IMG/VR virus record: IMGVR_UViG_3300049491_000064
Location: 1 to 25,071 of that record
Length of the DNA: 25,071 nucleotides
Source: a virus
Direction: 5' to 3' (one strand)
The translations under genes and the position numbers were made by a program. The notes beneath the pieces are model-generated. The model searched no databases. It saw only the letters and a list, made by a program, of their open reading frames with translations, and was not told the origin of the DNA. Positions 1 through 18,851 of this stretch are shown here, one piece after another; within the stretch, counting starts at the first letter, position 1; every line of letters starts with the position of its first letter.

Positions 1-833
1 GGAAAAATGATTACGGACGCGAGCGTCAGGAGATTGTCGGTGTGACGGCCGGGGCTATGGCTGTGGTCGGCGTGCCATTATTCCTGCTGTGGTTCTGGAT
101 ATTCTGTTCCCGCACGGTCAGCGCCGGAGAGGTCGGTATCATCACGCGCTTCGGCGAAGTGAACCGCGTCGCTGAGTCTGGCGTAGCCCTCAAGTTCCCG
201 TGGCCAATCGAGCACATCGAATACATGGAGACTCGCGTCCAGAAAGAGGAGCAGGACTCAACTGCCGCTACGAGCGATCTGCAAGACGTCACCGCAAAGC
301 TTGCGCTCAACTACCGCCTCGACAATGCTACCGCCCTCCGGGTGTACAAAGAGCTTGGTAGCGACTACGTGGCTCGCGTTGTCACGCCAGCCGTACAAGA
401 GTCGTTCAAGTCGGCAAGCGCTGGCTACACGGCACAGCAGCTCGTCACGGAGCGTCCAGCGGTCAAAGCCAAGGCATATGAGGCGATCAAGCAACGTCTC
501 GACAAATACGGTATCAGCATCGTCGACTTGAACATCGTCAACTTCAGCTTTTCGGCTGAGTTCAACAAAGCCATTGAGGCAGTGCAGGTCGCGAACCAGC
601 AGGTAGCGCAGGCCAAGCAAGAGCTAGAAAAGACCAAGATCGATGCCGAAAAGGCCGTCGCCAATGCTCAAGGTCAGGCCGAGGCACAGAGACTCCAGCA
701 ACAAACACTTACCCCTGAGATGCTGGAAAAAATCAAGCTCGACACGATGTGGCACGCTATCGACAAGTGGAACGGTATTATGCCTACCACCAACGCTGGA
801 GACGGTAACGTCCTGAGTATCCCACTACGCTAA
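1..833 (+). CDS. SPFH/prohibitin-like membrane protein (5' end may lie off the window)
   Basis: The frame is open to the left edge. A GTG at 42 preceded by AGGAG (28-32, 9-nt spacer) gives 263 residues, but residues encoded before it (K-N-D-Y-G-R-E-R-Q) could be a true N-terminus, so the start is unresolved. Counting from GTG-42, one hydrophobic segment covers about residues 8-26. It is followed by a band-7/SPFH domain containing the family-typical stretch S-A-G-E-V-G-I-I-T-R-F-G and ending near residue 180. An Ala/Gln/Lys-rich coiled coil follows at about 178-225, then a short C-terminal tail. Length and order match bacterial prohibitins, which assemble as membrane rings and in bacteria (HflK/HflC) modulate the FtsH protease. 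That a phage copy acts on host FtsH or the membrane is inference. The gene is on the strand opposite to the virion genes. Confidence 0.85.
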   Translation, partial: KNDYGRERQEIVGVTAGAMAVVGVPLFLLWFWIFCSRTVSAGEVGIITRFGEVNRVAESGVALKFPWPIEHIEYMETRVQKEEQDSTAATSDLQDVTAKLALNYRLDNATALRVYKELGSDYVARVVTPAVQESFKSASAGYTAQQLVTERPAVKAKAYEAIKQRLDKYGISIVDLNIVNFSFSAEFNKAIEAVQVANQQVAQAKQELEKTKIDAEKAVANAQGQAEAQRLQQQTLTPEMLEKIKLDTMWHAIDKWNGIMPTTNAGDGNVLSIPLR

Positions 834-2821: not shown

Positions 2822-4330
2822 TTATCCCTTTCTCTTTATCGACTTTACGACTGCCGATATGATGCCGCTGAGCGCACCGTCACGGCGACCGATTGCAATG
2901 GCCGCACGCTCGCGGATTGTCAGTTTATCGGCCTCCGCAAGACCCTCTAGCGCGGCCTGCATCGCTTGTAGTTCACCAATATCGAAGTCCTCCTCCGATG
3001 TTTCCATGACCTCGACAGGTATACCGTACCATGATCCGTTTTGGACACTGGTGCGAGTGCGATAGAAGTGCTGACCCTCTTTCTCGAACTCGCCTGCGAC
3101 ATTGACTGTAGTACCTTTGTCAATATGAACAGCCTCTAGCTTTCCATCGAGGTCAGTAATGGTGGCGCTGTCGGTAGCGATGTACGACCCAGCCTTGTTG
3201 ACCTTGAACGTAGCCTTCCAGCTGTCAGGGTTCGCAGGATCGATCGTCGCTCGTGGCGCTTCTTTTACCAGCTCGAGATCGCTAGAGACGATACCTTGTG
3301 CCACCTTTGCAGTCCCTGTGGTGTCGGCGTCACCAAAGCTTCCGGCAGACATGTAATACGTCGACCCGTTTGAGTGGATAGCCTTGCCGACTGCGGTGAA
3401 CGAAAAGCCCTTTGCTACCTGACCATTGACGGTAGGAGTGACATCGCTGATGCCGTACACGTTGGTCGGATCTTTAGTAGCTGCAACCTTGATGTCTTTT
3501 TCGAGCCGCACATAGCGAACGATGGTGGTTGCTTCCGCTGTTTTCTCGGGGGCAGTGCTGATCATCTTGTCGACCTCGGATCGAAGGCTATCACGCTCTT
3601 TGGCGATGGCGGTGAGCTGTTCTGTCGCTTGGCTCAGTTGGACAGATAGCGAGCTATTTGTTGCGACCAGTTGGTCGATCTGGCTTTGCAGCGCCCTCCA
3701 CCGTTCAGTACCGCCAAAGCCGTTGATGAAGCTCGTCGGGTTACTCTTTGCCATATGGAAGTCGATCTCGCCTTGAGTCGGCGTGCGGCCTTGGACTGCT
3801 TCGTATGTCTTGATGATAAATTCCGGCGTCATGAGCTTATTTCCTCCTGTTGATGTTGACGCTGCCGCTGGCGTTGGCGCTGTGACGGCTTGAGGTATGA
3901 ATTTTAGCGGGCGCAGCCAACCAATGACGTGCTGCCAGTTGTGAGTCACATAGTGGCAGTATGTACCGCCCCAGTTTTGGTCGAACGATACAAATGAATT
4001 GGCGTTGACCAGATGATCGAATATGGCAACGTGTCCACGAGGGTCGGGGCCGTTCCAGATGACAACGTCACCTTTTTGCGGAACTTGGTTTGGGTCACTC
4101 GGGTCGTTCGCGATTCTTTTGTACCATTTTCCAAGCCCGAGGCCGTCGAAGTTCTCAAACAAATCGCGAGCACCACCGGCGGGGTGAGCGCTAATATAGC
4201 CATGGCCGACGACATCGTTTCCATACTGGATAAACACGTCGTAGCACTGGAACCGCTGATTCTGTGGAAAACCATCGGTATCTAGCGATTTTCCGTTCCA
4301 GTTTCCAAAGAATCCGTCGACTATACCCAT
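2822..4330 (-). CDS. CHAP-domain endolysin with SH3-like C-terminal repeats
   Basis: This encodes 502 residues. The N-terminal CHAP cysteine peptidase/amidase domain covers about 1-145. Candidate catalytic Cys29 lies in Q-C-Y-D-V-F and His100 in R-G-H-V-A-I-F, with D-Q-N-W at 117-120 supplying the acidic/polar partner. CHAP domains cleave peptidoglycan cross-bridges or the amide link. An Ala/Thr/Pro linker (about 146-165) follows, then a small helical segment (about 166-210) resembling DUF4214-type modules, and a coiled coil (about 212-258). Two beta-rich SH3-like segments (about 270-355 and 375-445) probably bind the wall. The tail is basic. The start ATG overlaps the stop of the fibre gene (TAATG). 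Position before a holin-like gene supports a lysis role. A virion-associated lysin is an alternative. Confidence 0.88.
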   Translation of the reverse strand: MGIVDGFFGNWNGKSLDTDGFPQNQRFQCYDVFIQYGNDVVGHGYISAHPAGGARDLFENFDGLGLGKWYKRIANDPSDPNQVPQKGDVVIWNGPDPRGHVAIFDHLVNANSFVSFDQNWGGTYCHYVTHNWQHVIGWLRPLKFIPQAVTAPTPAAASTSTGGNKLMTPEFIIKTYEAVQGRTPTQGEIDFHMAKSNPTSFINGFGGTERWRALQSQIDQLVATNSSLSVQLSQATEQLTAIAKERDSLRSEVDKMISTAPEKTAEATTIVRYVRLEKDIKVAATKDPTNVYGISDVTPTVNGQVAKGFSFTAVGKAIHSNGSTYYMSAGSFGDADTTGTAKVAQGIVSSDLELVKEAPRATIDPANPDSWKATFKVNKAGSYIATDSATITDLDGKLEAVHIDKGTTVNVAGEFEKEGQHFYRTRTSVQNGSWYGIPVEVMETSEEDFDIGELQAMQAALEGLAEADKLTIRERAAIAIGRRDGALSGIISAVVKSIKRKG

Positions 4331-5406
4331 TACAACTGTGACCTCGACATGTAGAAGAAGTTGTTACGGTTGAACTCGACATCACGACTTGCACCGCTGT
4401 TCTGTAGCATCTTTATCTCGACAAAGTCCGTAGCCACTAGGTCAAGCTGGCAAGATACGGGTATGGATTCAAAGGCAACGGCGTTTGGCCTGTTTGCCTC
4501 CGCCATTAGCGTCCCGTTCTTATACACACCGACAGCGGTCGTACCACCACCGGCCGCCGACAGACGGATCTGTGCGCCTACCTGATAGACGCCCGGAACA
4601 GTAGCGGTAAACCTCCCGGTCGTGTTGTCGTACTCGCTACTCTTGTCGTAGTCCTCGCTGTTGAACACGACAACCGTCAAAGTGTTGTTAGCAATGGTCT
4701 GTACGCTTGTATTTCGGAAAGCGAAGAACGCGCTCTTGGTAACTGACAGCTTTGAGTCGGTGACGGACGAGGTGGCTAGATTCGCCGTCTCGACAAGACC
4801 AGTCGTCGAAACGATCAGCGTAGAATCAGTGACATTCGGGATGATGTGGCCGTTCTGGTTCGACGTTCCGCCCCATAGACGCCCCTTGAAAGATATCGGC
4901 TGGCGCATGTCAGTAATTTTAGCGTCGACGATGCTTGTGGCCGCTGCATCAACAGCGATACGGGCGATCTTCATCCACGGATTGCCGATGCCGACTGCCG
5001 CCTGAATGGCCGCGTCGTTTGGATCGATCGGCGTGCCGGAGGGCGCACCGTCCACCGATAGGAACTTGAGCGCCCCGGGGTTATTGTTCGACGCGCTCGA
5101 TACAACTGACAAGTCAACGTAGGCGACGACAATCGAGCGGCGCGGTGATGTCGGGTGGGCGGCACTGATGGATACGTTTTTTATAGCATCAGTGAAGCCA
5201 TGGAACATGTACGTCGTGTACGGTACGAGCACATCACCGATAGCAATGTCCACCGACATGTTTGCTCCAGAGCCGCGCTGAGAGGCTTTCAGAGATGTAG
5301 AGTCGAGGACGGTCGGCATACCGCCCGAGTGAGTCTTAGCCCACCATCGAGAAAACCCTTCTTCGGACGTTTTACCACCGTCACGGTACGATAGGAACTC
5401 GGACAT
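4330..5406 (-). CDS. Tail fibre/receptor-binding candidate with C1q-like C-terminal domain
   Basis: This encodes 358 residues. The N-terminal part (about 1-175) is a mixed, strand-rich region of the sort found in baseplate-attached upper fibres. Residues about 205-222 hold a short T-N-L-A-T-S-S-V-T-D-S-K-L stretch typical just before trimeric fibre heads. Residues about 225-358 look like a C1q/TNF-like jelly roll: A-F-F-A-F-R-N, then F-N-S-E-D-Y-D, G-R-F-T-A-T-V-P-G-V-Y-Q-V and a closing aromatic strand F-F-Y-M-S. C1q-like heads in phage fibres bind surface receptors. The gene has its own promoter candidate 43 bases upstream, and its stop overlaps the lysin start. Host-receptor binding is inferred. 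Confidence 0.75.
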   Translation of the reverse strand: MSEFLSYRDGGKTSEEGFSRWWAKTHSGGMPTVLDSTSLKASQRGSGANMSVDIAIGDVLVPYTTYMFHGFTDAIKNVSISAAHPTSPRRSIVVAYVDLSVVSSASNNNPGALKFLSVDGAPSGTPIDPNDAAIQAAVGIGNPWMKIARIAVDAAATSIVDAKITDMRQPISFKGRLWGGTSNQNGHIIPNVTDSTLIVSTTGLVETANLATSSVTDSKLSVTKSAFFAFRNTSVQTIANNTLTVVVFNSEDYDKSSEYDNTTGRFTATVPGVYQVGAQIRLSAAGGGTTAVGVYKNGTLMAEANRPNAVAFESIPVSCQLDLVATDFVEIKMLQNSGASRDVEFNRNNFFYMSRSQL

Positions 5407-9952: not shown

Positions 9953-11137
9953 CTAGATGGTCGCCAAGTTATTGATCATTTTGATATCGAATCCCTGACC
10001 ATCAGACGGGTCATATGCAGGGATATAGTCTATCTCGCTATAGAGGATGTCTCCAGCCTTGAGCGGTGGCTTCGGGCTGTTGCCGACCTTCGTGTTGTTC
10101 ATGGTCATGCGCAACTCGTACACCTGACCGTTTTGATACACATAATGTCGCGCGACCCACGCTGTTTTGATATTGGCGTGGTAGTTTTTCATGTCGTCGA
10201 GGGTGTCGAAGAATCGTTTCACCTTGAGGCTATATCCACCGACGGTACGGATCAGAGCGGCTGGATCGCGACCACCAGATCGCTTCTCGCCCTTCTCGTC
10301 TTTGAAATTGTGGTAGGCTTCCCACGTTGTGCCTTGCTCGAGACGGTTCTGTGCGGCTGATAGAGCAGCGGCGGCAGTAGCGCCGTTACAGAACTGGGTG
10401 TCGCTCCATGTGAACGGGTTCAACAGAGTAAACGATGGCGTGGTGGCTGGACGTAGGCTGATCATGTCGCCAGCAGCGAAAGCAGCAGCCGATGCACCGA
10501 GTACGATAGTGATACCATCACCGTTGACGGTCGTGACGGTCGTGTCGAGGGTAGCACCTGTGGATAACTTGGTAATACGAACGAGATCGCCTGCGACAAG
10601 CCCCTTGCTTGGTGCGATCGGATCGTAGTCGATCTTCAGGGTAATAGTGTTAGTCGATACTGTAGCGATTTCTCGAGTGTTGAACGACCCGAGAGCCGAC
10701 AATGCAAGCTGCATGGTCATTTCATTATCATTGTAGCCGGGGGTGAGCTTTGAGTTCTCCACGCCGAAGAATCGTGTCACGACGTTTCCAGTCGAGATGT
10801 CGACGGTGTAGCTATTAGCTGAAGCACCAAGAGTGTACGGGTGGGTGTATGGCCCTGTGCCAGTGGTCGTTCCTTTGGTCAGGGTCATGTCCAGCACCTT
10901 CGCCATGGTGTTTGGTTCAGCCATGATCGTTGCGGGGCCAAGATGCTCGCGCTGTCCGTATAGCACCTGATAGGTGTCGAACTTGCCGCCATAGATAGGC
11001 TGCTGGCGCTGGTAGTTCATCTCATTGACGATGTCTTCGTCGTACAGTGGCACATAATCGGTAGGAGTCAGCGGGACGCCTCTCGTCGCTTCCTTGACTA
11101 GTGCGAAATATCCAAGGTTGGCCAGACGTTCTGCCAT
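9953..11137 (-). CDS. Major tail protein (tail tube)
   Basis: This encodes 394 residues. The N-terminus (A-N-L-G-Y-F-A-L-V-K-E, then T-P-T-D-Y-V-P-L-Y) is the standard opening of siphophage tail tube proteins of this type. A strand-rich domain follows. A central Thr/Val-rich insert (about 150-235) has L-V-A-G-D-L-V-R-I and F-A-A-G-D-M-I-S-L, which look like a small inserted beta domain. The C-terminal part returns to tube-like strands ending in Y-D-P-S-D-G-Q. It is longer than simple tube proteins, consistent with an extra domain on the tube surface. The gene order (terminator candidate, small gene, this, chaperones, tape measure) fits. Confidence 0.85.
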   Translation of the reverse strand: MAERLANLGYFALVKEATRGVPLTPTDYVPLYDEDIVNEMNYQRQQPIYGGKFDTYQVLYGQREHLGPATIMAEPNTMAKVLDMTLTKGTTTGTGPYTHPYTLGASANSYTVDISTGNVVTRFFGVENSKLTPGYNDNEMTMQLALSALGSFNTREIATVSTNTITLKIDYDPIAPSKGLVAGDLVRITKLSTGATLDTTVTTVNGDGITIVLGASAAAFAAGDMISLRPATTPSFTLLNPFTWSDTQFCNGATAAAALSAAQNRLEQGTTWEAYHNFKDEKGEKRSGGRDPAALIRTVGGYSLKVKRFFDTLDDMKNYHANIKTAWVARHYVYQNGQVYELRMTMNNTKVGNSPKPPLKAGDILYSEIDYIPAYDPSDGQGFDIKMINNLATI

Positions 11138-11401: not shown

Positions 11402-11899
11402 TCAAGTGCGATTTGTCACGAAAACACGTTGCCTCAATGACAACGTAATATTTGCCTGAGATCTGATATATTGCTCGTCCATCGGTAGAATATCGTACTC
11501 GATCCGTACATCTGACTTCAAAATCCGTCCGTTCTGCGTATAAAAAGTGCGCAATCCGTACAGCATCGTACCCGGCAAATAGCTTCCATCGGTGGCTCGA
11601 GCGCCTACCATGCGGCGGAGCTTGCGCTCTGACAGGTCGGTATCGGGACTGGCTCCGATTTCGTCGGCCTTGTTCAGCACAATACTGATCATTATCGTCT
11701 CGTAGTACTCGTCGGTCATGGTAGCGCCGAGATCCACACTCTCTGATACTTTGTAGAGAACGATCGCCGGGAAATTGTCCTTCGGTATGTCGATCGGCTC
11801 GCCCTCGTAGTATGCCTTGATCTTGTCGCCAAACGTGCTGCGACAAAGCTCCATAAGAAGCGCCACGGTGTCTTTTTGAACGTTTGCGGTATCTTCCAT
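11402..11899 (-). CDS. Tail terminator/tail completion protein candidate
   Basis: This encodes 165 residues in an alpha/beta mix. An N-terminal helix is followed by F-P-A-I-V-L-Y-K-V and later strands (E-T-I-M-I-S-I-V-L-N and D-V-R-I-E-Y-D-I), resembling the small proteins that cap the tail tube (gpU and gp17 types). Its slot between a virion-morphogenesis protein and the tail tube gene is where terminators occur. The start overlaps the preceding stop by one base (TAATG). A longer antisense-like frame in another minus phase (11382-11936) covers it but has no recognisable content. The assignment is by position and fold impression. Confidence 0.7.
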   Translation of the reverse strand: MEDTANVQKDTVALLMELCRSTFGDKIKAYYEGEPIDIPKDNFPAIVLYKVSESVDLGATMTDEYYETIMISIVLNKADEIGASPDTDLSERKLRRMVGARATDGSYLPGTMLYGLRTFYTQNGRILKSDVRIEYDILPMDEQYIRSQANITLSLRQRVFVTNRT

Positions 11900-12360
11900 T
11901 ACAGTCCAGCCTCCTTGATCTTACGGCGAACTTCACTCTGCACGCGCAGTCTGATTATCTCCTTGACAGCGCTATTGATACCCATCATTTGACGACGTGG
12001 CAGGCGCGTGCGCGGGAGGCTTGACTGGTGGTACTTGAAGTACGGCATTCGGTTTGATATCTCAACGCTCGTCTGTGTGCTCTTGTGGCGGAACCCGCTC
12101 ATCATTTTTCCCGTTCTCACCAGAGGTGGACGGCCGGGATAGTGTCGTGATTTCCACAATGCGTAGGCGGTCTGTAGCATCGGCCATTTGTTGCGATACA
12201 CACCACCCTGCGACAAGAACCCACGAGTCGAGTAGTAATTCGAGACGTCATCACCGATCAGGTTCATCAAGCGCTCGTTCGTCTCGAAGCTATGGCCAAG
12301 CTTTTTCAGTTTGGCTATCTCCTCGTGAGTCCCGGTGATTTTGACCGATACCTGAAACAT
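11899..12360 (-). CDS. Phage virion morphogenesis (Mu gpG/HK97 gp10-like) head-tail joining protein
   Basis: This encodes 153 residues that are strongly basic. The family-like block runs from about residue 43 to 92: an F-x-x-G-G-V-Y-R-N-K-W-P-x-L stretch, a Lys-containing helix, then P-P-L-V-R-T-G-K-M-M-S-G-F. Such proteins join head and tail at the neck. The start overlaps the connector stop (TAATG) and the stop overlaps the terminator start (TAATG), so this is part of a tightly coupled neck cluster. Confidence 0.8.
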   Translation of the reverse strand: MFQVSVKITGTHEEIAKLKKLGHSFETNERLMNLIGDDVSNYYSTRGFLSQGGVYRNKWPMLQTAYALWKSRHYPGRPPLVRTGKMMSGFRHKSTQTSVEISNRMPYFKYHQSSLPRTRLPRRQMMGINSAVKEIIRLRVQSEVRRKIKEAGL

Positions 12361-13304
12361 TAGAATACGTCGCTTATCCTGAACAGCCTCTCGCCACCGC
12401 CCTGATCACCATCAGTGTCTGCCGTGGTAGCGTTTGGCCACATTTGCATAGCTGCGGCAGACGACAGCGCGAGGCTGGAGCCGTTCGCGTCGGTGACGAG
12501 TGTCTTCTTTGACTTCAGATCATCAAGCTCGCCGATTGCGAGGTCGTACTTTGCCTTGGCAGTGGTGTACGCATTGCTGAACTGGTCGTACTGCTCCATG
12601 GCCAGCATAGCGCCGCCGATGCGGGCAGTGAGATCACGGACGTATGGGCTGATAGGCTCGGTGAATGGCAGTGTGTACAGACCATCAAGAGTACCGTTGA
12701 GCAGCTGCTGCGCCGCCCGTCTCTTGAGGTCAACAGTGTTGTCGAGGATATTATAATTGCTCAGGAATCCAGCCTCGCGCCTGACATCCTCGAGCGTACA
12801 ATAGCTAACCTGACCGCCACGGACAGCGAAACTGTCGGCGATGTTCGTTTCAGCCGTCGATGTTGAGTTAAAGTATGTAAACTTGTACCAGTATCCCGAC
12901 CCGCCCGATGCGTCGGTGTAGCTCGTCTCTAGCTGGTCGTAGTCGATGGTGACGGTGCTGAGTAGCGAAAAACTGCCGTCTGATGGTTGCGTTCCGTCGA
13001 CATTGGCGGCACGATAGACGCGGATACTGTTGCCGAATAACGTGCTGATATCGTCGTAGCGGGTGTGTAGCTTCGAGGTGACGGCAGACAATGACACTAC
13101 TTGGCCACTTGGAGCACCGCTGACAGTGCGCAATTCCCCCAGTTCCGACCCGAGGCGACCGATGTATATATAGTTACCGTTGGCGATATTGTCGGCATAT
13201 TCCACCGATATGGTGCTTGCGCCGATAGCAACATCAGCCGCCAGTTTTGACCGTTCAACGACGTTGTTTGGCGAGAAGTTCGATACTTTTATTGTTTGGC
13301 TCAT
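12360..13304 (-). CDS. Head-tail connector (DUF1320/Mu gp36-like) with beta-rich N-terminal extension
   Basis: This encodes 314 residues. The C-terminal portion (about 165-275) is helical with Y-C-T-L-E-D-V-R-R-E, then V-D-L-K-R-R-A-A-Q-Q-L-L-N-G-x-L-D-G-L-Y, P-F-T-E-P-I-S-P-Y-V-R-D-L-T-A and a helix G-G-A-M-L-A-M-E-Q-Y. This is the pattern of gp36/DUF1320 connector proteins, which are usually about 130-150 residues. The first 160 residues are strand-rich (V-E-Y-A-D-N-I-A-N-G-N-Y-I-Y-I-G) and look like an added beta domain. The start overlaps the fibre-like gene's stop as ATGA. Confidence 0.78.
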   Translation of the reverse strand: MSQTIKVSNFSPNNVVERSKLAADVAIGASTISVEYADNIANGNYIYIGRLGSELGELRTVSGAPSGQVVSLSAVTSKLHTRYDDISTLFGNSIRVYRAANVDGTQPSDGSFSLLSTVTIDYDQLETSYTDASGGSGYWYKFTYFNSTSTAETNIADSFAVRGGQVSYCTLEDVRREAGFLSNYNILDNTVDLKRRAAQQLLNGTLDGLYTLPFTEPISPYVRDLTARIGGAMLAMEQYDQFSNAYTTAKAKYDLAIGELDDLKSKKTLVTDANGSSLALSSAAAMQMWPNATTADTDGDQGGGERLFRISDVF

Positions 13305-15526
13305 TTCCCCTCCAGTATAACCGTATTAGTAGTGTTGTCGCTAATGTATAACGATGATCCGGTCGCAGAATCAAGCGTCATAGATCCGTCACCTCCGGCC
13401 AGCAGTATCCCATCTCGCTGCTCGAGCAGCACGTCTGCGTTTGGCTGCACGGCCGTGAATCCCGATGTGATGATGTACGCGGAGCATGTCTGCGTCTTTG
13501 CGCGTGTATTGGCAAGTCTAGCAACCGCTGGTTGCGTTTTGGTGAAGGTGTTTGAGATTATAGCGACGGCCGTCTGTGTGATCGAGCGTACATTAGCGAT
13601 CCTCGCCACCGCCGACTGAGTCTTGGTTATGGCCATGACAATGCGCGCAGTAGCTGGCTGCGTCTTTGTAGATATGCCGCTGGTGATGATGGCAGCAACG
13701 GCGCTTTGAGTCTTCGTCAATACAACAGCGATACGTGCAGTCGCTGGTTGCGTTTTCGTCACTGCCTTGACGATGCGAGCAAATGCTGACTGAGTCTTAG
13801 CGATGATATTTGCAAGACGCGCTGTGGCAGGCTGCGTCTTGACGGTTGTGACCGAAATTCTCGATGTGGCGGTCTGCGTTTTCGTGAAATTCTGCGAGAT
13901 GCGAGCCACAGCCGATTGCGTTTTGGTTACGATATTTGCTATGCGAGCGGTTGCGGTCTGAGTCTTCGTGCCGAAGGCGATGATCCTCGCGGTGGCGCTT
14001 TGTGTATTGGTGACTATGTTGGAAATCCGCGAGATAGCACCTTGCGTCTTCGTAAACGTATTAGCGATTCGAGAGATGGCAGGCTGTGTTTTGGTCGACG
14101 TTACAGAGATACGTGATACCGCAGGCTGCGTCTTGGTGACACTCTTGGCTATCCTAGCGGTGGCTGGCTGCGTTGATGTTCGGGTATTGGATATGCGCGA
14201 TATAGCCGACTGTACCGACGTCCTCGTGTTCGCTATGCGAGCTATAGCGCCTTGGGTTTTCGTAGCTATGACAGCGATGCGAGCAAGCGCAGGCTGCGTC
14301 TTCGTAAGGTTATTGGCGATGCTCGCTATTGCACTCTGTGTCTTGGTCAGAGTTGCCCCACCGCTCGAGACGGTGAACGTCCTCGTAGCGCTCCACGCGC
14401 TGAAAGCACCGTTACCATTCGGGTCTTCGGCGCGGACACGCCAATAGTATGTCGTGGCTGGCGTCAGAGAGAATTGAGTGGTGTATCCGACTTGTTGCGC
14501 GGTGGTGAACGGATCGGTGTCGCCGCCGTTTATTTGGTTGGTGAACCCAGCATCGGTGCCGGAAAGGGCGCTAATCAGCGGGGTTTTTGCGGTCGACCTA
14601 AACGCCAGCGCGGCGACAAAAGCGTGATCGTTCGTGTCCAAGACACCGAAAGTGGCCGAAGCACCACCACGCCGCGCTACGATCTTCTCCTCTAGGGCTA
14701 TCTCGATACCAGTCGTGGCGTTTACGTTGGTGTTGAGGTTGCTGTAATTAGCCCCCAGTGACCACTGTCCAGTACCAGCGTTCAGGACGCCAAAGCCAAT
14801 AATAATATCGTTGTCTTGCGTGGTATTGGCGGTAGTGCCGGATTCGCGCACCGTGCCGATGATGCTTCCCGTGCCGATGTACTTGTCAAGTGACTGTATG
14901 CCGCTGTACTCAAAAATGGATACGCCAAGGTCAGCGCTGTTCTGGTTGACGGTAACTTGGAAGCTCGAGCCGCCAGTAGCGACGCCAACCGATACCCATA
15001 TCTCTGCACCGACGAAACTAGCATCGCCGCCACCGACGACGTGCGTGTAGGTATTGCCCTTGTTGTCTGTGACACTTGTGACCTGTCCATCACTACCCCA
15101 GTTGTTGCCGATCGCCACGATGATCGTATTCCCGACCGTGACTGGATTCGTGAAGCTGGTGGCAAGTGAGGCCGTGGCGGAAGCGCCATTTTGGGCTACC
15201 TGTACACGCGCCGGATCGGCGCTTTGGCTGTCGAACGTGCTAGCCGTATCGACCTGTATTTGGTATCGAACGTCGTCAGAGTCGCTGTCCGTGCCAGTGA
15301 ATAGAATCGTCGGCGTCAACGACCCGAAAGCGTTAGCATCGACCGTATCCTGCGCCACAGACGGGTACATGTTCGGCCAGAAGCTATTGCGAAAAATGGG
15401 GTTGTTGCTGGTGTTGTCTTTACGCTGTCGGTGTATCAGCAAAGAGCCAGAACGAAGACCCCGCCTACGAAGTGGGTAGGAGGATTTTGTGCCGGTGTAA
15501 GCATTACCCTTACCAGGCGTCGCCAT
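13301..15526 (-). CDS. 741-aa repeat protein with split fibronectin III-like domain; head-fibre candidate
   Basis: Residues 1-65 are basic and polar. A fibronectin III-like domain appears to begin at about 68-100 (T-P-T-I-L-F-T-G-T-D) and to resume at about 314-386 (P-L-I-S-A-L-S-G-T-D, then T-Y-Y-W-R-V-R-A-E-D-P). Between them lies a beta jelly-roll-like segment (about 105-312). Residues 394-690 are 21 tandem 14-residue repeats, consensus T-K-T-Q-x-A-x-A-R-I-A-N-x-x. A 50-residue Leu/Asp/Gly-rich C-terminus (about 691-741) follows. The repeats suggest a beta-solenoid or rod. The gene lies between the capsid and the connector, so it may encode a head fibre. It is co-translated with its neighbours (ribosome site AAGGG, ATGA overlap at the 3' end). 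Function is inferred. Confidence 0.8.
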   Translation of the reverse strand: MATPGKGNAYTGTKSSYPLRRRGLRSGSLLIHRQRKDNTSNNPIFRNSFWPNMYPSVAQDTVDANAFGSLTPTILFTGTDSDSDDVRYQIQVDTASTFDSQSADPARVQVAQNGASATASLATSFTNPVTVGNTIIVAIGNNWGSDGQVTSVTDNKGNTYTHVVGGGDASFVGAEIWVSVGVATGGSSFQVTVNQNSADLGVSIFEYSGIQSLDKYIGTGSIIGTVRESGTTANTTQDNDIIIGFGVLNAGTGQWSLGANYSNLNTNVNATTGIEIALEEKIVARRGGASATFGVLDTNDHAFVAALAFRSTAKTPLISALSGTDAGFTNQINGGDTDPFTTAQQVGYTTQFSLTPATTYYWRVRAEDPNGNGAFSAWSATRTFTVSSGGATLTKTQSAIASIANNLTKTQPALARIAVIATKTQGAIARIANTRTSVQSAISRISNTRTSTQPATARIAKSVTKTQPAVSRISVTSTKTQPAISRIANTFTKTQGAISRISNIVTNTQSATARIIAFGTKTQTATARIANIVTKTQSAVARISQNFTKTQTATSRISVTTVKTQPATARLANIIAKTQSAFARIVKAVTKTQPATARIAVVLTKTQSAVAAIITSGISTKTQPATARIVMAITKTQSAVARIANVRSITQTAVAIISNTFTKTQPAVARLANTRAKTQTCSAYIITSGFTAVQPNADVLLEQRDGILLAGGDGSMTLDSATGSSLYISDNTTNTVILEGK
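13457..14347 (-). repeat. Tandem array of 21 units of about 42 bp encoding 14-aa repeats
   Basis: Counted on the minus strand, 19 units encode 14 residues, one encodes 16 (unit 16) and one 15 (unit 21), totalling 297 codons. Units conserve T-K-T-Q at positions 1-4 and A-R-I-A around positions 8-11. Codons vary widely at synonymous positions, so the DNA copies are diverged while the protein pattern is kept. Confidence 0.9.
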
Positions 15527-15529
15527 GTG

Positions 15530-16357
15530 CTACCCTTGCGTTTCGAGGTATTGACCCATGAAGTTCGTGGCGGTTGTCGCAGAGGGGAACCACACCAGTT
15601 CTAGCACACTGTTGTCATACACGCGCGGCATACCTCCAGTAAGTGTGTCAATAGCGTTGCCGATGTTTGCCGATGTGATTTCTACCTGAGCGAGTACGCG
15701 GAACAGCACGAGGCTGTATGCCCCTGATGTGCGGGTAGCGCTCTGGATGAGCGCCTGTACCGATCGCACGCCACGGTCGCCAGCGGCGAGTGTGAACAGC
15801 TCGAAAGTACCGACAGGAGGTGTTGTGACAGCTGTCAGTACGCCGCTGTTGCTGGCGTTACCATCAGAGTCGGTGTAGGTGATGGTCACGGTTGGCGTAC
15901 CAGCACCACCAGTCGTTGACCACTCAAGCGCCGCGAGTACATCGTCGCCGTTGGTTGTGCCAGTACGGTCACGAGCGGGTATAGCGGCTGGCGTAATAGC
16001 CTGCGAGGTTGTCAGGGTCGTCGATAGACCGCTGTTGTGCCACAAGCGATCAATAAGCCATAGCGTGCCGGGCGTCGAGGCGTTCCATGCGAGGCGGCCG
16101 ACATGAGCGTTGCCGCTGACGGGGTTCGTGCGAGGGATACGGCCACCAACAACGCCTGCGGGCGTGTTGAGCGACGCAGTGACAGCCTCACCGTTCACAC
16201 CGATCGTCGGGGCGACAGATGCGCCGGGGTTTCCTGCGGCATAGCGCAAAGAATAGCCGCGCATACCACCGACGGCAGCGGTAGCGATACCAGTCTTGAT
16301 GATGGCGTTCGGCGGTTGAAATCCAGCTAGTGCTGCGTCTTCTGTGGTAACTGCCAT
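15530..16357 (-). CDS. Structural protein, head-ornament candidate
   Basis: This encodes 275 residues rich in Ala, Thr, Gly and Val with few charged residues, and no signal peptide or membrane segment. Tandem strand-rich stretches (V-T-I-T-Y-T-D-S-D-G-N-A-S near 160-172, and L-A-A-G-D-R-G-V-R-S near 190) fit a beta-sandwich shell or fibre protein. Y-T-D-S-D-G-N resembles an Ig-like or fibronectin-like strand-turn. Stop-start spacing with both neighbours is 1-3 bases. I recognise no family. Composition and context, between the capsid and connector genes, point to a virion surface protein. Confidence 0.65.
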   Translation of the reverse strand: MAVTTEDAALAGFQPPNAIIKTGIATAAVGGMRGYSLRYAAGNPGASVAPTIGVNGEAVTASLNTPAGVVGGRIPRTNPVSGNAHVGRLAWNASTPGTLWLIDRLWHNSGLSTTLTTSQAITPAAIPARDRTGTTNGDDVLAALEWSTTGGAGTPTVTITYTDSDGNASNSGVLTAVTTPPVGTFELFTLAAGDRGVRSVQALIQSATRTSGAYSLVLFRVLAQVEITSANIGNAIDTLTGGMPRVYDNSVLELVWFPSATTATNFMGQYLETQG

Positions 16358-16358
16358 G

Positions 16359-16535
16359 CTACGCTACCCTTTCTAGGTGAACGGGAGCAAAATCCTTGTG
16401 CTCTCCGTCAACATCAATGACACACGTCCCGTCTTCGTCGCTTTTCACCAAAACAACGGCGTAGACACCGGGCATGAACTGCTTAAAAGGCTCTTTGACG
16501 CTTACTCTGTCGCCTACAGTTATTGGTCGTTCCAT
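16359..16535 (-). CDS. 58-aa SH3-like small protein
   Basis: ATG 16535 to TAG 16359-16361 gives 58 residues. The ATG overlaps the stop of the upstream gene (TAATG), and the stop is 1 base before the next start (TAGCATG), so the frame exactly fills the gap. The protein begins M-E-R-P-I-T-V-G-D-R-V-S-V-K-E and has alternating strands (G-V-Y-A-V-V-L-V, then T-C-V-I-D-V-D-G) ending H-L-E-R-V-A. This pattern is like a small SH3/Tudor-type barrel. The function is unknown. Confidence 0.75.
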   Translation of the reverse strand: MERPITVGDRVSVKEPFKQFMPGVYAVVLVKSDEDGTCVIDVDGEHKDFAPVHLERVA

Positions 16536-16918
16536 TAGCGTAACTCCATCACTTCCTTCTGGCTTTTGCCAGTTTTATCAACGTATTGATAGCCGAAATC
16601 AACGCCAGACCACCAGAATTTCTGCGCCCCAGTCTCGACGTTTGTCTCGAGATTCCCTTGGCGGAATCGTATCGGCCGGGCGTTGTCTGGCAGACCGACC
16701 CAGTTGACGTCGTAACGCTTACCTTTCCAGTGTACAGAAAAACGCACGATGTTACCGTGTGCGGCCTCGTGGTATTTCTCGAGAATGTCGTGGAAGGTGT
16801 TTTTTCCTTCGACAAACTGTGAAACGTCATCGTGATCAATCTCGCGTACAACAAGTCCGTCCTCGTATACGGCCTCGACTGTGCTATCCAACGACATTGA
16901 ATTGTCGTTTACTATCAT
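16535..16918 (-). CDS. Protein of unknown function in the head region
   Basis: This encodes 127 residues, acidic, with several aromatic residues late in the chain (W-W-S-G-V-D-F-G-Y-Q-Y). It opens with a strand-like V-E-A-V-Y-E-D-G-L-V-V-R-E-I. A polar helix with F-H-D-I-L-E-K-Y-H-E-A-A-H-G follows, then strands I-V-R-F-S-V-H-W-K-G-K-R-Y-D-V-N-W-V-G. An internal ATG at residue 8 could be the true start. The start is 2 bases after the upstream stop. I see no motif. The layout could be a small structural or assembly protein. Confidence 0.65.
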   Translation of the reverse strand: MIVNDNSMSLDSTVEAVYEDGLVVREIDHDDVSQFVEGKNTFHDILEKYHEAAHGNIVRFSVHWKGKRYDVNWVGLPDNARPIRFRQGNLETNVETGAQKFWWSGVDFGYQYVDKTGKSQKEVMELR

Positions 16919-16920
16919 GT

Positions 16921-17430
16921 CTAGCTCTCAGTCCACGTAGCGGTGATCGTGCGGGACGTTATGTCACCGGGGCCGCCAGCGTAGCTGGAGGTCGTCTGGA
17001 GCTGCGATCGGAGCGCATTGGCGTACATCGTGCCCCCAGCGGTGGTCGACGACGTGCCTGCGCCGTATGGCGTAGTCGAGTTGTTGAAGTTTGCCGATAG
17101 ACCAGTGGTCGAGAGGGCAGAGTCACCTGACGCTGTTGTCGCAGGAGTCGTACCAGAGGTGACGACAGCACCAACAATCGAAAGTCCCGTCGCTGGGGCG
17201 TTGTTGTCGATCTTGTACGTCAGGGCGGACAGCGAGTTCCATGTACCAGCGAATTTGAGCGCTTGGTATTTGGTCATGCTGTTCTCGTTGTTGGTCGAGT
17301 TGATCGGGTTGCTCGAGTAGTCAGACTGCGTAGCACCGTCGTTGCGCTTCCAGTTGCAAGCGGTTACGTTGGCGGTTTCGGTGGCGGCAGACGCGCCATT
17401 GTACTCGCTCCAAGTTTGCGTACTAGCCAT
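16921..17430 (-). CDS. Ser/Thr/Asn-rich structural protein, head-ornament candidate
   Basis: This encodes 169 residues, very rich in Ser, Thr, Ala, Asn and Gly with few charges. It begins M-A-S-T-Q-T-W-S-E-Y-N-G-A. The composition resembles beta-sandwich decoration or fibre-tip proteins exposed on a virion. The start is 1 base after the upstream stop (TAGCATG). A strong GGTAGGGGTATAG leader overlapping that stop serves as ribosome site. No named family is recognised. Confidence 0.65.
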   Translation of the reverse strand: MASTQTWSEYNGASAATETANVTACNWKRNDGATQSDYSSNPINSTNNENSMTKYQALKFAGTWNSLSALTYKIDNNAPATGLSIVGAVVTSGTTPATTASGDSALSTTGLSANFNNSTTPYGAGTSSTTAGGTMYANALRSQLQTTSSYAGGPGDITSRTITATWTES

Positions 17431-17431
17431 G

Positions 17432-17617
17432 CTATACCCCTACCACTGGCTCTTTGTGCCAGCCGATTAGATTTCCATCAGCGTCGTAGTCGTACACGAC
17501 TCGTTCATCTGGCAGACCAGCAGGAGTCGGTAAAACAGTACCATCCGCGACGCCAGCACCCTCGTTCAGAGTGGTTGTCTGCGTTTCTGGTTGTGGCTGT
17601 GGCACATCTTCTAGCAT
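17432..17617 (-). CDS. Small acidic protein, function unknown
   Basis: This encodes 61 residues: an acidic, Pro/Gln/Thr-rich N-terminal half with a disordered look, then V-V-Y-D-Y-D-A-D-G-N-L-I-G-W-H-K-E-P, a short strand-turn-strand. Ribosome site CAGGAG precedes the ATG. It lies between a gene pair of the head region and is preceded by a 71-base gap carrying a hairpin. It could be a small virion or assembly accessory protein. Confidence 0.6.
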   Translation of the reverse strand: MLEDVPQPQPETQTTTLNEGAGVADGTVLPTPAGLPDERVVYDYDADGNLIGWHKEPVVGV

Positions 17618-17936: not shown

Positions 17937-18851
17937 TTAGACGGTGTTAGTGATGACGTACATTGCGTTTGGATCGACGACCTTGTTGTCGTAGTAGTCC
18001 GTAGCACGCACGAAGTCAGTCTTGATGTCCGGCTCGCTCCACTCGTCAACAGCTGCAACTCCCGAGAGCTTGATCTCGTATCCAGCAGTAGGAACCTCGA
18101 TGGCAGGGGTCGGGGTAACGTAAGCGAGAATAAAGTTGTCGCTCCACACCCAGTCCATGACGTCGGTCTGACCTTCTTTGGCGGTGTTGTTGATAGCATC
18201 AGCGATGAGCACACGTTCGACGTCAAACCACTGAGCGAGGGCGCTTCGCAGGTTTGCTTCGTTCACAACGTTGACGTACTGGATCGAAGCGAGGAAAGCG
18301 GTGTTCTTGAGCACGGCGTTCAACGAGAGCTTTGAGATGACAGCAACGTTTGGTCGCTTTCCAGTGTTCTTCTGGATGGTGTCGCGACCAGTGCGCACCT
18401 GCCCTACGATATCGGTCGAGATGGTATTCCATGCAGTAGCAGCGTCAAGACCGGGAGCGCCAGCAGCGAGAATAGTCGCCTGCAAGTCGATTTCCTTGTC
18501 GAGCGCCAGCTTGTCCTTGACAAGCATCGTGGCGTTCTTCTTGGGATCGAATGGCATTTGGCCGTTTTTGCGGAGCTTCCATGAGATCGGCGATTCGAGC
18601 GTCTTCTCCTCGAGGGTGTAGGTGGCCTGTGAGAGCGTGTTGGTCACACGGTTCGCACGGCTGAACTCACCACGACGAGCGTCGGCAGGAGCGCGGAGGT
18701 TTTCCTTGTCACGGACGAAGTAGATACCCGTCTCTTTGTCGACCTCTACGGTTGGGAACAGTTGGCCAGCAATGTAGTTTTGCTCACCACTGTATCCGAG
18801 GTAGATGTCGGTCAGGAGTGGGTTAACGTAAGTATCTCGTACAGCGGGCAT
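17937..18851 (-). CDS. Major capsid protein (HK97-like fold)
   Basis: This encodes 304 residues. The start M-P-A-V-R-D-T-Y-V-N-P-L-L-T-D-I, then the E-loop-like basic region (R-G-E-F-S-R-A-N-R-V) and A-T-Y-T-L-E-E-K-T-L-E-S, are typical of capsid proteins of this class. The later spine-helix and P-domain regions (T-I-Q-K-N-T-G-K-R-P-N-V-A-V-I-S, with L-I-A-D-A-I-N-N) and the C-terminal D-E-W-S-E-P-D-I fit as well. It is directly downstream of the DUF2190-type decoration gene and the protease/scaffold gene. AAGGAAAGGA provides a strong ribosome site. The subunit assembles the icosahedral shell. The specific subfamily is not certain. Confidence 0.9.
   Translation of the reverse strand: MPAVRDTYVNPLLTDIYLGYSGEQNYIAGQLFPTVEVDKETGIYFVRDKENLRAPADARRGEFSRANRVTNTLSQATYTLEEKTLESPISWKLRKNGQMPFDPKKNATMLVKDKLALDKEIDLQATILAAGAPGLDAATAWNTISTDIVGQVRTGRDTIQKNTGKRPNVAVISKLSLNAVLKNTAFLASIQYVNVVNEANLRSALAQWFDVERVLIADAINNTAKEGQTDVMDWVWSDNFILAYVTPTPAIEVPTAGYEIKLSGVAAVDEWSEPDIKTDFVRATDYYDNKVVDPNAMYVITNTV

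Follow-up and report, generated by a model that had tools for sequence, protein, structure and literature searches.

The window analysed here, a stretch of 25,071 bases that makes up an IMG/VR virus record, carries a long run of minus-strand genes. It begins with the terminase subunits, a Mu-like portal, a gpF-like protein, a Mu-like protease, a phrog_673 protein and the major head protein, continues through small genes, g169, g127, g275, the repeat protein gene (REP), g314 and neck1, passes to a putative major tail protein (9953-11137, labelled by position), a 503-residue tape measure, Dit and a tail endopeptidase-like protein, and ends with a C1q-domain protein and an endolysin (Table 1). 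Judged by its gene content, the phage combines a Mu-like portal and protease with a siphophage tail. REP, whose stop codon runs into the start codon of the following gene (ATGA), sits in the head-to-neck interval, in agreement with the initial annotation, which had placed it between capsid and connector genes. The C-terminal half of g314 looks, from its sequence, like a head-completion protein; g275 had no family match and was not detected in the 17 relatives compared. Elsewhere in the window, a divergently oriented gene (42-833, plus strand) matched phrog_200, labelled lipoprotein, and resembles an SPFH/prohibitin-type membrane protein, and the product of the C1q-domain gene (4330-5406, minus strand) ends in a C1q/BclA-like domain and is likely a receptor-binding protein.

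Table 1. Features of the repeat protein and its neighbours in the window
Feature	Position	Strand	Basis or remark
Neck1 / tail completion protein	11899..12360	-	phrog_26, E 1.5e-13; downstream of REP
g314	12360..13304	-	Gene after REP; common to Mu-head relatives
REP, 741-residue repeat protein	13301..15526	-	ORF reading
REP C-terminal 36 residues, beyond the array	13304..13411	-	Sequence reading
REP array, residues 394-705	13412..14347	-	21 units of 14 residues plus a degenerate 22nd
Ig/FN3-like segment, residues 315-388	14363..14584	-	Directly before the array; sub-threshold Pfam Ig_Rha78A_N match
REP beta-rich domain, residues ~114-314	14585..15187	-	23-34% identity to other repeat proteins
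g275	15530..16357	-	Between g127 and REP; optional
g127, second cassette protein	16535..16918	-	Proposed adaptor or assembly factor
g169, most conserved cassette protein	16921..17430	-	Proposed anchor; up to 88-89% identical in unrelated phages
g61, small protein with motif YDYDADGNLIGWHKE	17432..17617	-	Often directly upstream of g169 in relatives
Major head protein	17937..18851	-	phrog_1005, E 2e-61; upstream of REP

The initial annotation had described REP as a 741-residue protein with 21 repeats of 14 residues; its coordinates and count were confirmed, and the strand, which it had not stated, is minus. The units (consensus TKTQxAxARI in the window) begin at residues 394, 408 and 422, with the 21st at 676 and a degenerate 22nd, TAVQPNADVLLEQR, at 691. 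The strict 14-residue pitch claimed earlier holds for 19 of the 21 unit-to-unit intervals, the remaining two being 16 and 15. A DNA pattern spanning two units had 12 matches in the window, whereas 100 dinucleotide shuffles gave none. Residue identity among units was ~52%, and where units share a residue their codons agreed in 37.0% of cases versus 36.4% expected from window codon usage, with no clear trend by distance. Such agreement at the random expectation indicates that the array is old and has been kept at the protein level by selection. Thus the earlier view of an old or selection-maintained array with widely diverged synonymous codons is well supported, and a recent expansion of the repeats was rejected, as synonymous sites are saturated. 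Near-identical units do exist in some relatives (L032, L042 and L008). Upstream of the array, the beta-rich domain was without a match in the PDB, and residues 60-105 resemble the Ig/FN3-like segment, which suggests that the two may form a single Ig-like domain split by an insert.

A degenerate version of the two-unit DNA pattern, searched in IMG/VR, returned 48 loci, about 34 of them with true arrays. Counting by a position matrix, over these loci and others fetched later, found 1405 units in 55 proteins, as compared with 18 above-threshold matches in composition-shuffled copies. Across the 55 proteins 1220 of 1350 successive intervals (90%) were exactly 14, and the family consensus was T-[KQR]-T-Q-[TSP]-[GA]-[VKTI]-[AS]-R-[IV]-x-x-[TS]-x. 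Arrays ranged from 2 to 99 units in the pieces examined, many of them interrupted by large domains of about 100-450 residues. Two further proteins were observed: i) a 2468-residue repeat protein (L123, 419-7825, minus strand), which is the L032 protein in longer form, has 115 unit positions above threshold and is encoded next to a GIY-YIG-like gene; and ii) a podophage cassette protein (L109, 11813-13783) with a diverged 14-residue repeat of QxGxFRV type that falls below the strict profile.

Neither Pfam nor PHROGs holds a family describing the 14-residue unit, and a six-unit profile searched against the PDB gave coiled-coil-like compositional matches only. Among isolate phages, tblastn with the REP protein and its array (E up to 10; repeat masking possible) found no relevant match, and g169 and g127 of two divergent types found none. 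The cassette proteins had no match among 50,697 phage records, nor any family or solved structure to account for them, the whole REP protein as query retrieved nothing from viral contigs, and a literature search found no paper on the motif. As far as its sequence tells, the unit is an undescribed repeat family, absent from the databases searched; the PHROG, Pfam, PDB and isolate-phage searches with protein or array likewise returned no similarity to any described head fibre.

The initial annotation considered REP by itself, without the cassette, the charge and the domains of relatives described below. The array protein does not travel alone. A profile search with g169 recovered 61 loci; gene maps of 58 loci placed g127 downstream of g169, no more than four genes away, in 54, and showed a downstream repeat protein in at least 35, several loci without a strict repeat protein being cut-off contigs or carrying diverged repeats (L109, L085). 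Conversely, of 32 records that the repeat pattern alone had retrieved and that were tested, 26 carried g169 (four of the other six are fragments of 5.7-12.4 kb), against none of 14 control records whose pattern match lay outside any array. REP is thus, on gene neighbourhood, the variable third member of a g169-g127-REP cassette. The cassette and the head and tail genes have separate histories: in L052 g169 is 88% identical to that of the window with no window gene detected outside the cassette, while in L063 g169 is only 62% identical yet TerL (54%) and the putative major tail protein (57%) are shared. The best reading of these identities is that the cassette has moved horizontally, passing between unrelated podo-, sipho- and myo-like phages. 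Clustering had seemed to link g169 to the major tail protein, but the link rested on one partial match and was dropped.

The third slot is often filled with lectin-like or surface-type domains, which we counted in favour of an exterior adhesin. Among 53 repeat proteins we found Gly-rich domains in six, ConA-like lectin domains in three, and DUF2341 and Ig-like segments in two each; in L066 a glycosidase-like protein, read by eye, lies between g127 and REP. Other occupants of cassette loci were also observed. Two Patescibacteria prophages (L119, 9911-12511; L120, 5296-7884) encode, after g169 and g127, an 860-residue protein whose short repeats are of another kind (IQKSLTYRI type); it also has beta-sandwich domains, and its C-terminus, again read by eye, is amidase-like. 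A cassette-linked protein in L092 (5514-7037) begins with an intein- or Hedgehog/Hint-like sequence, and in L041 (7929-11888, minus strand) a T4-like baseplate wedge protein bears a C-terminal extension of about 10 of the 14-residue repeats.

The arrays are strongly cationic. Asp+Glu make up 1.3% and Lys+Arg 14.1% of array residues, against 6.4% and 4.7% in the remainder of the same proteins, and each of the 52 arrays with at least eight units has a positive net charge, the median being +1.9 per unit. The array of the window (294 residues, 21 units) has a net charge of +40 and zero acidic residues, and the other 447 residues of REP have a net charge of -12. This charge could serve solubility or DNA contact instead of adhesion.

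With regard to fold, the conserved positions of the unit are T3, Q4, G/A6, A/S8, R9 and I10, the variable ones are 11-14 and 1-2, and insertions of 1-3 residues or of whole domains are located between units; together these features suggest a strand, a tight turn, a strand and a loop. A coiled-coil rod like the phi29 head fibre, with 14 residues as two heptads, would be in line with the profile searches, which weakly matched SMC and other coiled-coil families as well as heptad-repeat chains of coronaviruses, but these matches look compositional. Moreover, Gly occupies position 6 in 55% of units and Pro position 5 in 38% of window units, Gly or Pro is present in 74% of all units, and unbroken heptads without helix breakers were not found; Thr, Ile and Val are abundant, and acidic partners for salt bridges are lacking. 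We therefore rejected the coiled coil on the Gly/Pro content of the units and hold it to be highly improbable; a beta shaft rather than a coiled-coil shaft is very probable from the composition of the repeats. The initial annotation had proposed a solenoid rod, and a strand-turn-strand shaft would fit the sequence at least as well. A trimeric beta shaft is our preferred model, with a single-chain beta-solenoid as the alternative.

Whether such a shaft would stand on the head or the tail was approached through gene order in relatives. In 41 of 59 loci a gene for the major head protein is found no more than about eight genes from the cassette (34 upstream, seven downstream), a figure to be taken as a count and not as an independent test, the loci being partly near-duplicates. 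The capsid families beside the cassette are diverse (phrog_1005, 267, 10, 1357, 371, 138, 9953 and 422, with phrog_1328 in the Patescibacteria prophages), and the genomes are T7-like, Mu-like, HK97-like and T4-like. In 15 of the 59 loci no head protein gene was identified despite at least six visible upstream genes. The suggestion of a head fibre or capsid-bound rod made in the initial annotation thus finds statistical support in the frequent nearness of head genes, but not in the three tail-linked relatives L013, L105 and L041. Gene order is weak evidence for virion location, and the position in one genome is no proof of a head fibre.

In the most serious competing reading REP would belong to the tail, as a fibre or as a receptor-binding stalk at the tip, with its gene outside the tail block; we consider this possible though on balance unlikely. 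It would account for the cassettes that follow the Dit, tail endopeptidase and C1q-like genes (L013) or the tape measure gene (L105), and for the L041 repeats fused to a baseplate wedge protein; moreover, Ig-like and lectin-like domains occur in tail fibres too. A location in the tail-tip or fibre block does not apply to REP in the window and fits only a minority of relatives: in podophage, Mu-head and other siphophage relatives the cassette adjoins head genes rather than tail-fibre genes, and in the window the C1q-domain protein is a separate candidate for receptor binding.

A cationic, nearly acid-free array that is often head-linked might instead belong to an internal head protein in contact with packaged DNA. 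We regard this as very unlikely, given that i) the ConA-like lectin, Gly-rich and Ig-like domains of relatives are typical of exterior proteins, ii) an amidase-like domain ends the two prophage counterparts, and iii) one relative is fused to a baseplate protein. The same fusion, together with the place of REP among late structural genes and its ATGA overlap with the next gene, speaks against a non-virion protein that the infected host would display or secrete, a reading we find scarcely credible despite the adhesin-like domains and despite published work on Patescibacteriota phages that treats their ConA-like lectin genes as auxiliary genes benefiting the host (PMC12911398).

We think it probable, on the domains and gene neighbourhoods described, that REP is an external virion adhesin. 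Should it be one, attachment on the head is somewhat the likelier arrangement, the capsid being favoured over the tail. The fuller reading, in which a portable cassette would encode an adhesin of the virion surface with REP as its projecting stalk, we judge to stand at about an even chance. Under the adhesin reading, g169 would anchor the device on the virion and g127 would act as an adaptor or assembly factor. Each REP unit would contribute a strand (TKTQ), a tight turn (T/P-G/A), a second strand (VARI) and a loop, and the units would stack into a stiff, probably trimeric rod that keeps the beta-sandwich domains at a distance from the particle, the cationic shaft perhaps sticking to polyanionic surfaces or matrix.

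The triple beta-spiral shafts of adenovirus fibre and reovirus sigma1 have about 15 residues per unit, arranged as strand, Gly/Pro turn, strand and variable loop. The 14-residue unit, with Gly at position 6 in 55% of cases and extra residues between units, would fit this outline; it differs in having no PDB match and in being unusually basic and Thr-rich. Thr-rich antifreeze beta-solenoids share the T-x-T motif within a short repeat, but in REP the two threonines flank a K, Q or R, so that the ice-binding face is not reproduced; an ice-binding TxT solenoid was rejected, as these residues could not face the solenoid core. Phage structural proteins carry Ig/FN3-like and ConA-like domains that are thought to adhere to glycans. 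Such domains are also found in the repeat proteins, here joined to a cationic array and travelling with g169 and g127; the modular adhesins of PMC13370021 offer a comparison. Head fibres of phi29 gp8.5 type and outer capsid proteins of T4 Hoc type are accessory projections that aid ordered host attachment (PMC7602432). REP resembles them in its proposed accessory role and in genes often near capsid genes, but has no PHROGs, Pfam or PDB match, and its capsid attachment is a proposal; moreover the fibre on the phi29 head is built as an alpha-helical coiled coil (PMC7602432), a fold that the REP array disfavours. The best reading of the sequence is that REP belongs to a known kind of protein, the phage accessory adhesion fibre.

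As for hosts, a pattern search of 84,980 species genomes gave two matches, the one with an array being a Patescibacteria MAG. g169 was found in three of 380 Patescibacteria genomes, plus one more in the class, and in none of 398 Bacillota genomes, a difference that is not significant on these numbers and covers the only two phyla sampled. Two of the four Patescibacteria occurrences each lie within one long contig (0.8 and 1.1 Mb) and are therefore likely prophages; the other two, on contigs of 43 and 76 kb, could be mis-binned phages. The order g61-g169-g127-REP recurs in L126 as in the window. The window terminase was uninformative as a host indicator (one of 342 Patescibacteria versus 12 of 358 Bacillota). 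That the cassette is an adhesin module characteristic of Patescibacteria (CPR) phages, with a polycationic shaft gripping anionic surfaces, and that as a marker it could link uncultivated phages to these hosts, is a speculation we hold to be doubtful.

If the adhesin reading is right, a whole class of environmental phages would have a means of adhesion in common, one that passes as a block among short-tailed, long-tailed and T4-like virions, with g169 as its portable docking part. The cassette would moreover supply a marker gene for phages of a group that culture collections lack, and the arrays a natural cationic repeat scaffold for study. The published lectin genes of Patescibacteriota phages, reported as auxiliary metabolic genes (PMC12911398), might then in part be such virion adhesins.
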